The notes beneath the pieces are model-generated. The model was not told the DNA's origin, did no database searches, and saw only the letters and a program-made list of their open reading frames with translations. A stretch of 55,818 nucleotides of DNA from Pseudomonadota bacterium. GTDB taxonomy: Bacteria; Pseudomonadota; Alphaproteobacteria; Rhizobiales; Beijerinckiaceae. The translations under genes were made by a program, and so were the position numbers. The stretch lies in assembly GCA_021780435.1 (NCBI GenBank), contig JAJXYV010000017.1:1-55818 (forward strand), written 5' to 3'. Positions 12,114-43,676 of the stretch are shown here, one piece after another; position 1 is the stretch's first letter, and every line of letters begins with the position of its first letter.

Positions 12114-12365
12114 GCGCCTCGCTCACGCCAATCGGACACGATATCGAAAGAACAGATATCTTATAGTTCAGTTCTTCATTTCATCCAATTATACACAGTC
12201 TGAAATAAGCGCAATTTTTAAGCAACTTTTATAAATAGTCATCTCAGTGTGAATTTTATTGGTTAAATTTTTTAACTTTTATTTGTTACTTTAAACAATG
12301 AGTGGACAATGGTTGCAACGCCAAGCCCCTATCGCCCACCGCCTTTCGGCTTGCATTTGGACACG
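12114..12365. other. Low-GC intergenic island with a palindrome
   Basis: This stretch separates the glycosyltransferase start from the LexA-type box. Counting bases at 12181-12300 gives 29 G+C in 120 (about 24%), against a strongly GC-rich surrounding. GTTAAA-TTT-TTTAAC at 12262-12276 is a perfect interrupted palindrome that could be an operator or a binding site for an AT-rich-DNA protein. No convincing gene is present; short ORFs here lack coding character. The composition suggests foreign origin or a nucleoid-protein binding region. Confidence 0.6.
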
Positions 12366-12380
12366 GAACAAAATAGGAAC
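12366..12380. promoter_or_regulatory. LexA-type SOS box (GAAC-N7-GAAC)
   Basis: The plus strand reads GAAC (12366-12369), seven bases AAAATAG, then GAAC (12377-12380). Read on the other strand this is GTTC-CTATTTT-GTTC, an exact match to the alphaproteobacterial LexA operator GTTC-N7-GTTC. It sits 33 bases before the ATG of the small gene at 12414, where it could block a promoter. A similar box with the same T-rich core precedes rmuC in this window. LexA binding is inferred from the motif. Confidence 0.65.
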
Positions 12381-12413
12381 ATGCAGAATGTCCCTTATGC
12401 CTCGGAGGCGCCT

Positions 12414-12674
12414 ATGGCGCAAAGCCTGCCCCTCACCCTCCACAATGGCGGCGAGCAGCCGTTGCCCGCCGACTGGCGCCATCTGCTCGATCTTCTGCCC
12501 GAAGACCTGCGCGACCTCTATGAGGAGCGCGCCGCGCTCATCGAATATGACGGCGGCGAGAAGCGCGCGACGGCGGAGCGCCGCGCCTTCGAATGCGTGA
12601 TGGAAGGGGCGGATCGCGCTTTCTGGGGACGATTGGGCGCGGCGGCTGGCGAAAAACGTGCGGCTATGACCTGA
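12414..12674 (+). CDS. Small acidic protein of unknown function, upstream of the DNA methyltransferase
   Basis: The 86-residue product starts MAQSLPLTLHNGG. I chose this start because GGAGG at 12404-12408 is 5 bases upstream; an in-frame ATG at 12381 lies against the LexA-type box with poor ribosome-site spacing. The core LLPEDLRDLYEERAALIEYD, then GGEKRATAERRAFE, is helical and charged. Similar ERAA-EYDGG-AERRA stretches occur, as I recall, in plasmid and phage-associated proteins, so an accessory role is possible. There is no Cys pair, signal or membrane helix. The methyltransferase follows after 34 bases, so the two are probably cotranscribed. Confidence 0.65.
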   Translation: MAQSLPLTLHNGGEQPLPADWRHLLDLLPEDLRDLYEERAALIEYDGGEKRATAERRAFECVMEGADRAFWGRLGAAAGEKRAAMT

Positions 12675-12708
12675 TGGAAGGCATGATTCTTTCCGGCAAC
12701 CCGCCCCG

Positions 12709-13899
12709 ATGCCTCGACCGCTGACCTTTTACGAATTCTTCGCCGGCGGCGGCATGGCCCGCGGCGGGCTCGGCGCCGGCTGGACCTGCCTGTTCGCCAA
12801 TGACATCGACCCAGAAAAAGCGGCCGCCTATCGCGCCAACTGGGGCGGCGAGGAACTCGTCTGCGGCGATCTCGGGGCCATCGCAGCGCGCCTGATCCCC
12901 GGCGAGGCCGATCTCGCCTGGGCTTCCTTCCCCTGCCAGGACCTGTCGCTTGCCGGCGGCGGCCGAGGCATGGGCGCCGCCGACGCCGAGGTGAAGACCC
13001 GCAGCGGCGCTTTCTGGCTGTTCCATGAGAAGGTGCGCGCCTTGCGCGCGCAAGGCCGGGCGCCGCGCGCCATCGTGCTGGAAAATGTCGTCGGCGTTCT
13101 CACGTCGCACGGCAGGCGCGACTTTTGCGCCCTGGTCGGGGCTCTGGACGAGATCGGATACCGGGTTGGCGCGCTCATCCTGGACGCGCGCTGGTTCACG
13201 CCGCAATCGCGGCCGCGCGTCTTTTTCGTGGCCTTGCAAAAGGCCCTGTTCGCCGCCCTGCCATCCGACGGAGCGGGCCTCCTTGCCACGCAGGCCGATC
13301 CCCTCTGGTCGTCGCCCTCCCTGATCGCGGCGCACGCGGCCCTGCCCGCAGGTCTCGCGGCCGATTGGGTCTGGTGGCGCCTGCCCGAACCGCCACGGCG
13401 CAACGCCGACCTGATCGACCTGCTGGAAGACGACCCCGCCGACGCGCCCTGGCGCTCGCAGGCCGCGACCGAGCGATTGCTGGCGTTGATGGCGCCTGCC
13501 CATCGCGGAAAGATCGCCAAGATGCAGGCGGGAGGCGAACGGGCGATCGGCGCGGTCTACCGGCGCACCCGCATGGACGAGAACGGCGTCAAGAAACAGC
13601 GGGCGGAGGCGCGTTTCGACGGCCTGGCCGGTTGCCTGCGCACGCCGGGCGGCGGCAGCTCGCGCCAGACGATCATGGAGGTTCGCGGCGAAACGATCCG
13701 AACCCGGCTGCTTTCGCCGCGCGAAGCGGCCCGGCTGATGGGCCTTGCAGACTCCTACAAACTCCCGAAAGGCGCGGGCGCAGCCTATAAATTATGCGGC
13801 GATGGCCTTTGCGCGCCGGCGGTCCGCCATCTTGCGGAACATCTCCTTCAGCCGCTGTTGGGCGCCATGGCGGCGAAGGATCTCGCAGCTGCGGAATAA
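12709..13899 (+). CDS. DNA (cytosine-5-)-methyltransferase, solitary
   Basis: This 396-residue enzyme methylates cytosine C5 in DNA using S-adenosylmethionine. The ordered C5 motifs are visible: I, FYEFFAGGGMARGGLG near residue 7; IV, SFPCQDLSLAGGG near 72 with the catalytic Cys; VI, IVLENVVGVL near 124; VIII, FTPQSRPRVFFVA near 163; IX, LLSPREAARLMGL; and X, GDGLCAPAVRHLAEHL near the C-terminus. The target-recognition region between VIII and IX is ~170 residues. No restriction endonuclease or Vsr gene is adjacent, so it is an orphan enzyme. Low-GC DNA on both sides and the LexA-type box upstream suggest an acquired, possibly damage-induced cassette. The recognition sequence cannot be predicted. 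Confidence 0.92.
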   Translation: MPRPLTFYEFFAGGGMARGGLGAGWTCLFANDIDPEKAAAYRANWGGEELVCGDLGAIAARLIPGEADLAWASFPCQDLSLAGGGRGMGAADAEVKTRSGAFWLFHEKVRALRAQGRAPRAIVLENVVGVLTSHGRRDFCALVGALDEIGYRVGALILDARWFTPQSRPRVFFVALQKALFAALPSDGAGLLATQADPLWSSPSLIAAHAALPAGLAADWVWWRLPEPPRRNADLIDLLEDDPADAPWRSQAATERLLALMAPAHRGKIAKMQAGGERAIGAVYRRTRMDENGVKKQRAEARFDGLAGCLRTPGGGSSRQTIMEVRGETIRTRLLSPREAARLMGLADSYKLPKGAGAAYKLCGDGLCAPAVRHLAEHLLQPLLGAMAAKDLAAAE

Positions 13900-14031: not shown

Positions 14032-14159
14032 ATCCAGCTCTTGACCCTGACAGGATATTCTTCGAAAAAAACATTTTTGCCGCTTACGCATAATCTGATC
14101 GTCATATTGTTTTGCTATAGCGCTCCCGTCGCGAAGGCGTGGCGCACCAAGAGATTTTC

Positions 14160-14396
14160 ATGAACCTCTATCATTTCCAGATGATCGACCCGACCGGGGC
14201 GCGCCGCGACCTCAAGTCGCTGCGTCTCGCCGACATCGGCGCGATCTGGCGGGAAATAGACGATTTGACCTCGGATCAGGCGCGCGGCGGGCAAATCCGA
14301 GTCACCAATGAAGCCGGCGGCATCGTCGTCCTCGTCGGCGTCTCCACCGCCCGCAGCCTGCAGGCCCGCGGTCTCGCCGCACGCGCCGCCGCCTGA
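14160..14396 (+). CDS. Small conserved-type protein (DUF6894-like, uncertain)
   Basis: A 78-residue protein starting MNLYHFQMIDPTGARRDLKS. The layout, a beta-strand start, 'D-G/x-R-D' turn, helix and a V/I-rich strand (RVTNEAGGIVVLVGVSTARSL), resembles the small DUF6894-type proteins common in Rhizobiales. The match is from pattern memory and is not certain. I chose this ATG over one seven codons upstream because AAGAG precedes it at a reasonable distance. It has no cysteine and no signal peptide. The role is unknown. Confidence 0.55.
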   Translation: MNLYHFQMIDPTGARRDLKSLRLADIGAIWREIDDLTSDQARGGQIRVTNEAGGIVVLVGVSTARSLQARGLAARAAA

Positions 14397-42527: not shown

Positions 42528-42542
42528 GTTCTATTTTTGTTC
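42528..42542. promoter_or_regulatory. LexA-type SOS box of rmuC
   Basis: GTTC-TATTTTT-GTTC (42528-42542) is an exact GTTC-N7-GTTC operator and overlaps a plausible -10 (TCTATT) placed 17 bases after TTGCAA at 42507-42512. It lies 24 bases before the rmuC ATG. The operator-like box argues for the ATG at 42567 rather than the in-frame TTG at 42537 inside it. Confidence 0.7.
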
Positions 42543-42566: not shown

Positions 42567-43676
42567 ATGACCGACCGCATTCTGTTCGAAATCCTCGATT
42601 TTCCGGTCACTGCCTATGAGCTGGCGGGGGCGCTCGTCCTGCTGGCCCTGTTCGCGCTCGCCTTTTTCGCGCGCGGCGGGCGGCGGGCGCAAGAGGAGGC
42701 GCAGATGGCGGCGCTTTCGCGCGCTCATGCGGAAATGGCGGGGCGGCTGCAAACGCTCGCCGAGATCCTCGGCGGCCGCCAGGCCGATTTCGCCCGCACC
42801 GTCGCGGAAAAGCTCGATTCCTCGGCCCATCGGGTCAATGAACGGCTGGAGACTTCGGCGCGCGCCACCCTGGTCAATCTGAGCGCGCTCAATGAAAGGC
42901 TCGCCCTGATCGACGCCGCCCAGGCGCGGCTGGCCGGCCTGACCGAGGAAGTGGTCGGCCTCAAGGACGTTCTCGCCAACAAGCAGGCGCGGGGCGCTTT
43001 CGGCCAGGGACGGATGGAGGCGATCATCCGCGACGCCTTGCCGGCGAACGCCTACGCCTTCCAAAAGACGCTCTCGACCGGCGCGCGGCCCGATTGCGCC
43101 CTGAAACTGCCCGGCGACGACAAGATCCTGGCCATCGACGCCAAATTTCCGCTCGAGGCCTTCACCGCCTTGAAGGAAGCAGGCGACGAGGGGGCGAAAA
43201 AGGCCGCGCAGGCGCGCGTGCGCGCCGATCTCGGCAAACATGTCAAGGACGTGTCCGAGCGTTATCTCCTGCCCGGCGAGACCCAGGACGTGGCGATCCT
43301 CTTCGTCCCCTCGGAGTCCCTGTTCGCCGAATTGCACGAGCATTTCGACGACGTCATCCAGAAGGCCCATCGCGCCCGGGTGCTGATCGTCTCGCCCTCG
43401 CTGCTGCTCATGGCGATCCAGGTTCTGCAGGCCTTGGTCCGCGACGCCCTCGTGCGCGACCAGGCCCATGTCATTCAGGCCGAGACGCGCCGCCTCGTCG
43501 AGGACGTGGCGCGCCTGCGCCAGCGGGTCTTGAAGCTCGACAGCCATTTCCGCCAATCGCAGGAGGACGTCGCCGCAATCCTGACCTCATCGGAAAAGAT
43601 CGCTCGGACCGGTGAGCGCATCGACCGCATCGATTTTTCGAACGACAAGCCGGATTTCCTGACCGCGGCCCAATAA
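42567..43676 (+). CDS. rmuC: DNA recombination protein RmuC
   Basis: A 369-residue protein with a membrane-anchor helix (ELAGALVLLALFALAFFARGG), a coiled-coil region rich in Ala/Leu/Glu (~35-130), then the RmuC nuclease-like domain (ALPGDDKILAIDAKFPLEAF, FVPSESLFAELHEHFDDVI, and the VLIVSPSLLLMAIQVL block). RmuC limits rearrangements at inverted repeats and is a PD-(D/E)xK-type protein. The LexA-type box supports SOS control. Confidence 0.93.
   Translation: MTDRILFEILDFPVTAYELAGALVLLALFALAFFARGGRRAQEEAQMAALSRAHAEMAGRLQTLAEILGGRQADFARTVAEKLDSSAHRVNERLETSARATLVNLSALNERLALIDAAQARLAGLTEEVVGLKDVLANKQARGAFGQGRMEAIIRDALPANAYAFQKTLSTGARPDCALKLPGDDKILAIDAKFPLEAFTALKEAGDEGAKKAAQARVRADLGKHVKDVSERYLLPGETQDVAILFVPSESLFAELHEHFDDVIQKAHRARVLIVSPSLLLMAIQVLQALVRDALVRDQAHVIQAETRRLVEDVARLRQRVLKLDSHFRQSQEDVAAILTSSEKIARTGERIDRIDFSNDKPDFLTAAQ

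Follow-up and report, generated by a model that had tools for sequence, protein, structure and literature searches.

A predicted SOS operon of a small protein and a solitary C5 cytosine methyltransferase in Rhodoblastus

The window (the whole 55,818-nucleotide stretch of DNA that was analyzed) corresponds to contig C213 in a draft genome of 3.18 Mb that is 93% complete, and it carries on one strand a gene for an 86-residue protein followed, 34 bases past its stop codon, by a gene for a C5 cytosine DNA methyltransferase (Table 1). An earlier note, made from the sequence alone, had described a perfect GAAC-N7-GAAC operator before an 86-residue gene with a good ribosome-binding site and, 34 bases later, a complete methyltransferase; all of these elements were recovered here, and the second gene was assigned by Pfam to DNA_methylase with an E value of 7.8e-40. 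Alternative starts of the small gene at 12309 and 12381 were ruled out, the start at 12414 behind GGAGG being kept across the genus, in which a single genome (G005) has TTG at the position of the ATG. Separately, a stretch resembling TGATTC lies in the gap between the two genes (12675-12708) and is found again in most aligned loci, and no ribosome-binding site is evident at the methyltransferase start; the two genes may be translationally coupled, or the gap may hold a second site of control. Beyond the operon on its 3' side lie an 85-residue frame (14139-14396) with a sub-threshold DUF6894 match (E 0.011) and then a gene identified by Pfam as ApaG.

Table 1. Features of the predicted operon and of the comparison locus in the window
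Feature	Position	Strand	Evidence and conservation
-35-like element TTGCAT (putative role)	12351-12356	+	TTG..TT invariant in gapless register of 11 genomes
LexA-type operator GAAC-AAAATAG-GAAC (GAACAAAATAGGAAC)	12366-12380	+	Kept in 11/11 genus genomes
-10-like element TAGGAA (genus: TANGAA; putative role)	12374-12379	+	Within the operator, 17 bp past the -35-like element
Ribosome-binding site GGAGG	12404-12408	+	Sequence; GGAGG-type site recurs in aligned loci
86-residue protein	12414-12674 (including stop)	+	No family match; predicted helical; 11/11 genus genomes
Solitary C5 cytosine DNA methyltransferase, 396 residues	12709-13899	+	Pfam PF00145; TIGR00675; HhaI-like fold; 11/11 genus genomes
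Second LexA-type operator	42528-42542	-	Plus strand reads GTTC-TATTTTT-GTTC; begins 39 bp 5' of the ATG of rmuC
rmuC, for comparison (same predicted regulon)	42567-43676	+	Pfam RmuC, E 4.2e-54

The window is DNA of the purple bacterium Rhodoblastus. Close relatives of the 86-residue protein were found at nine loci of named records, seven of them in Rhodoblastus (R. acidophilus, R. sphagnicola, and Rhodoblastus sp.) and two in bins named only as Proteobacteria. Comparisons within the genus used 11 Rhodoblastus genomes, every one of which carries both the small gene and the methyltransferase, and the two genes evolve with median dN/dS values of 0.29 (purifying selection on the small gene) and 0.24 (methyltransferase, over 55 pairs). 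Among the matches listed, the ApaG gene 3' of the operon is common to seven of the 11 compared loci, one 5' neighbor gene is likewise common to seven, and three loci have both. The sharing of these flanking genes by subsets of the genus fits an old chromosomal locus that was rearranged later.

The earlier note had proposed that a genuine box would be conserved in relatives keeping the two genes, and box and genes indeed occur together in all 11 Rhodoblastus genomes. The genus form of the box is GAACAAA[A/G]TANGAAC, in which the eight bases of the arms and the spacer's AAA.TA are kept throughout, and its end lies 30-33 bp 5' of the small-gene start in each genome. In the gapless register of the 11 genomes, mean pairwise identity is 100% in the arms and 82% in the spacer, as against 56% in the bases immediately upstream, 26% in those 21-60 bp away, and about 40% on the downstream side; among the 90 columns that flank the box, six do not vary, namely TTG..TT upstream and the A directly after the box. 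The combined layout, TTGNNT-N17-TANGAA plus the box, resembles a sigma-70-like promoter whose -10 element and part of whose spacer would be covered by the box. As a pattern, promoter plus box gave 26 matches in the 11 genomes versus one for a reversed control, and these fall by sequence into three sets: the operon (11), sites resembling one that lies 5' of a purC-like gene in the window's genome (11, one per genome), and sites resembling those before a regulator gene (four). The bare motif GAAC-N7-GAAC, on the other hand, is not above chance, either in the window (two found versus 1.54 expected, with 47 of 100 shuffles reaching two) or genome-wide (88 versus 77 for the reversed control pattern). 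We therefore regard the box as above chance because of its place and its conservation in all 11 genomes, by which a chance origin was ruled out, and draw no support from the bare motif counts.

The LexA consensus of Caulobacter is cited as GTTC-N7-GTTC (PMC12907096), and the operator of the operon fits this LexA (SOS) form and lies at the promoter. A single LexA gene is encoded in each of the 11 Rhodoblastus genomes, that of the window's genome with both LexA domains by Pfam, and GAAC-N7-GAAC begins 102-115 bp 5' of lexA in all of them. A similar operator had also been pointed out before rmuC, and it was found at the expected place in the window (Table 1), with the same box type beginning 39-56 bp 5' of the aligned rmuC start in 11 of 11 genomes. 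Further, 19 box loci were inspected in the window's genome: the lexA locus and 18 more, chosen by eye among the 88 boxes because their spacers are A/T-rich. In addition to lexA and rmuC, genes read by eye as uvrA/ssb, uvrD, and imuA stand beside boxes; several others of the 19 loci resemble chance. The reading of the box as an SOS-type operator thus holds up across the genus, and LexA control of the small gene and methyltransferase is, as judged from these sequence comparisons, very likely.

Conservation alone is insufficient proof of SOS control, because the purC-like site, too, is kept in every one of the 11 genomes. In the window's genome, this site (L105, C110:3987-4016) is a GAAC-N7-GAAC with promoter-like spacing, about 120-150 bp 5' of a purC-like gene, which was read from translation in one genome. 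Such a comparable pattern, together with the chance-level counts of the bare motif, would suit the view that the box at the operon is some other conserved promoter element, reading GAAC-N7-GAAC by coincidence, and that the operon is not damage-induced; however, neither arm varies and their spacing is exact, the box lies over the promoter as a repressor site would, and lexA and rmuC carry the same box type in all 11 genomes, and we consider this view very unlikely. Two further observations concern the boxes themselves. In four of the 11 genomes, a box with promoter spacing stands before a helix-turn-helix regulator with an S24-like end (L099, L101, L124, and G001:C59:74264-74293), the names of these regulators, like that of the purC-like gene, coming from reading of translations. 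In the window's genome, a box letter-identical to that of the operon lies just 5' of a glutathione S-transferase-like gene (L076, C147:2591-2605).

The first gene behind the box encodes a protein for which no family was found in Pfam, NCBIfam, or PADLOC. Its structural model is helical and of low confidence (pLDDT 65), and a fold search with that model gave no match (best E 1.6); weak PHROG matches (E 0.038 and 0.13) were left out of the argument. The best-conserved stretch of the protein is YEERAALIE.DGGEKR, and this core was also detected (E up to 0.01) in 17 of the 396 other genomes searched within the order. Among these 17 loci, two yielded no frame, 10 had their neighbors listed, and six were scanned with Pfam (seven frames); DUF927 or DUF3987 genes were present at four of the six scanned loci, one of which also has a phage portal gene, and two of four scanned core-bearing proteins have a sub-threshold TubC_N-like start. 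In the loci inspected, the core-bearing proteins outside the genus do not lie beside this methyltransferase, and the core was not seen by pattern in 13 loci of related methyltransferases outside the genus. Searches of phage and plasmid collections returned nothing for the 86-residue protein at E values up to 1. A mobile-element ancestry of the protein is plausible, because core-bearing loci contain DUF927/DUF3987 genes and, in one case, a phage portal gene.

These properties bear on what the small protein might do. That it might be a partner or inhibitor of the methyltransferase is a guess. It could itself be the SOS effector (e.g., an inhibitor of division, of a nuclease, or of another enzyme), with the methyltransferase as a passenger or restrained by it, and its place as first gene behind the box with a good ribosome-binding site, its presence in all 11 genomes, and its conserved core would fit such a role. 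Set against this are the lack of an informative family or fold match, a model with pLDDT of only 65, and the occurrence of the core, in the loci inspected, in proteins that are not beside this methyltransferase, and we rate an effector role for the small protein as quite unlikely.

For the methyltransferase, besides the Pfam match, TIGR00675 scores above its cut-off, HhaI is matched both in sequence profile and in fold, and PADLOC gives DruM as the best match (E 3.7e-146) alongside Type II models. The stretches PC, ENV, and QSRPR are those we take to be its catalytic C5 methyltransferase motifs, and the columns FPCQ, ENV, and SRPR are invariant in an alignment of 18 methyltransferases, one per genome, drawn from the 25 genomes with a strong match. 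Those 25 (match below 1e-100) were found among 100 searched genomes and comprise the 11 Rhodoblastus genomes and 14 other genera, the best match in the next genome being 4e-24. Outside the genus, the 700 bp upstream of the related methyltransferase was scanned at 13 of 14 loci (the gene was not located in L025) and contained one perfect box (L014, at -191), which we discount because the genome rate predicts about 0.25 such boxes (hand-worked), i.e., near chance.

Relatives of the methyltransferase are also carried by phages (335 records, best 52% identity) and plasmids (139 records, best 54% identity), and this leads to the main rival in function. The promoter, small gene, and methyltransferase may together be a domesticated module that came from a prophage or another mobile, integrative element, in which SOS induction shielded the element's DNA from restriction by the host, and may now be a fixed anti-restriction relic, of use when SOS accompanies prophage, gene-transfer-agent, or conjugative activity; control would be identical to that of an SOS operon of the cell and function different. 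The recurrence of the small-protein core in 17 of 396 other genomes, with DUF927/DUF3987 genes at four of six scanned loci and a phage portal gene at one, speaks for such an origin as do the phage and plasmid relatives of the enzyme. The small protein, however, has no match in the phage and plasmid collections, and the operon has the marks of an old chromosomal locus, being present in all 11 genomes, under purifying selection, and with neighbors shared by subsets of the genus. On this balance, a mobile-element function is possible, and we consider it somewhat unlikely.

A further line of evidence, which goes beyond the earlier note and bears on the likely function, is the association of this methyltransferase family with vsr. 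All 25 methyltransferase-bearing genomes have a vsr gene, versus 22 of the 75 others (Fisher p 6e-11, kinship ignored), and, counted by genera, in 15 of 15 with the methyltransferase versus 21 of 68 without (p 5e-7, kinship again ignored). In 13 of the 14 other genera, vsr lies 3' of the methyltransferase and shares its strand; the two matches are at most about 62 bp apart in 10 genera and separated by a gap of 0.8-0.95 kb in three, while in the 14th (G093) it is on a different contig. The longer gaps hold a GIY-YIG gene in two genera and, in one, a DUF4928 gene, which is a Type II restriction enzyme in PADLOC. Burkholderia phage AH2 carries an uninterrupted series of methyltransferase, one gene without assignment, GIY-YIG, and Vsr.

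The claim that the methyltransferase has no restriction partner stood for the immediate neighborhood and for the two partner types searched: no restriction nuclease was recognized adjoining the Rhodoblastus gene, and searches for the two partner types, GIY-YIG and DUF4928, gave no match in any of the 11 genomes. As a check of sensitivity on small sequence sets, the GIY-YIG query recovered a relative of 28% identity. Vsr itself is encoded in all 11 Rhodoblastus genomes over the family cut-off (PF03852) and is unlinked to the methyltransferase; the vsr loci share a PHA_gran_rgn-like gene (10 of 11) and a fumarate-hydratase-like gene (nine of 11), one example of each having been assigned by Pfam. 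None of these 11 unlinked vsr loci has a box (L149 with little upstream DNA), and vsr was thereby rejected as a second SOS gene. One vsr copy (L153, G010:C141:17579-17779) has an internal stop codon, the methyltransferase frame of the same genome being open, and this species may have lost Vsr yet keep the methyltransferase.

Phylogenies were built for both proteins. In the Vsr tree (30 rows, without one G001 paralogue and G010), the 10 Rhodoblastus sequences cluster as a single clade (100/99); the wider group around it (99/98) has eight more rows, all of them methyltransferase-linked Vsr. In the methyltransferase tree (27 rows, without G033) the Rhodoblastus enzymes are likewise one clade (100/100). 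Several inner groups are common to both trees (G002-G004; G001, G006, G005, and G009). Beyond the genus the two trees disagree, the nearest methyltransferase being that of G029 (94/91), whose Vsr lies outside the 99/98 group. From these patterns we infer that the methyltransferase-vsr pair was split before Rhodoblastus diversified, and the LexA promoter and small gene were presumably gained by the methyltransferase in the same interval.

Taken together, we think it likely that the two genes form an operon in the Rhodoblastus SOS regulon, in which a solitary methyltransferase of a Vsr-associated family has been rewired under LexA together with a small gene. Before the genus diversified, the enzyme would have lost its nuclease partner, or never had one, and it would have been separated from its vsr and brought under LexA along with the small gene. 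In undamaged cells, LexA on the box would cover the -10 element and part of the spacer and repress the operon; upon DNA damage, LexA cleavage would permit synthesis of the 86-residue protein and the methyltransferase. The enzyme would then methylate cytosines at its own motif, and the surviving, box-less Vsr would probably repair T:G mismatches arising from 5-methylcytosine, so that in this genus Vsr would be present at all times and the methyltransferase would be raised by damage. LexA binding, damage induction, methylation activity, and service of this enzyme's sites by Vsr are all predictions of this model, under which the DNA methylation of Rhodoblastus probably changes upon DNA damage. 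In the open literature that we could search, no account was found of a LexA-controlled C5 methyltransferase encoded on a chromosome. If the model is true, DNA damage changes the cell's 5mC pattern, and SOS is tied, through Vsr, to mutation at methylated cytosines.

Several known systems share parts of this arrangement. In Escherichia coli, the C5 methyltransferase Dcm is paired in one operon with Vsr, which mends T:G mismatches, whereas the Rhodoblastus pair is unlinked and a LexA-type box stands on the methyltransferase. Type II restriction-modification plus Vsr clusters, as in the other genera and phage AH2, have a methyltransferase of the same family (52-63% identity) and the same or a related Vsr, but some of them carry GIY-YIG or DUF4928 genes, which have no match in Rhodoblastus. 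Although DruM of Druantia is the best PADLOC match of the methyltransferase, the neighbor genes identified are of other kinds. DpnA of Streptococcus pneumoniae, a methyltransferase of adenine, offers a likeness in control. As described in PMC3573125, it is competence-induced, its substrate is single-stranded DNA, and its restriction partner is active; as predicted for the Rhodoblastus operon, a methyltransferase is here made under a stress-linked program.

Caulobacter crescentus, whose methyltransferase ScmA has the motif YGCCGGCR, offers another likeness. According to the account in PMC12907096, deleting the solitary methyltransferase gene scmA switches on SOS through VsrA, whose gene is unlinked to scmA, damage-induced, and has a LexA box inside it, and that paper proposes that VsrA breaks DNA when ScmA is absent. 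As in Rhodoblastus, an alphaproteobacterial solitary C5 methyltransferase is found with a Vsr-like endonuclease encoded elsewhere, an SOS link (in Rhodoblastus a predicted one), and the GTTC-N7-GTTC motif (PMC12907096). By analogy, a self-correcting loop can be imagined in which falling methylation would let Vsr break DNA, the ensuing SOS response would cleave LexA, and the methyltransferase would restore the sites; the SOS response would then sense how far the cell's own DNA is methylated, and methyltransferase and Vsr would be retained together in the manner of an addiction module. We regard this loop as unlikely, because VsrA and the Rhodoblastus Vsr differ in family, VsrA being a DUF559 protein (PMC12907096) and the Rhodoblastus Vsr matching PF03852, because the breaks made by VsrA are themselves a proposal, and because the vsr of G010 is interrupted. 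The two systems differ in what SOS-type control acts on, which as described is vsrA in Caulobacter (PMC12907096) and, by the position of the box, the methyltransferase and not vsr in Rhodoblastus. With methyltransferase and Vsr at separate loci and control opposite to that in Caulobacter, the persistence of solitary cytosine methyltransferases would become directly testable in named strains such as Rhodoblastus acidophilus.
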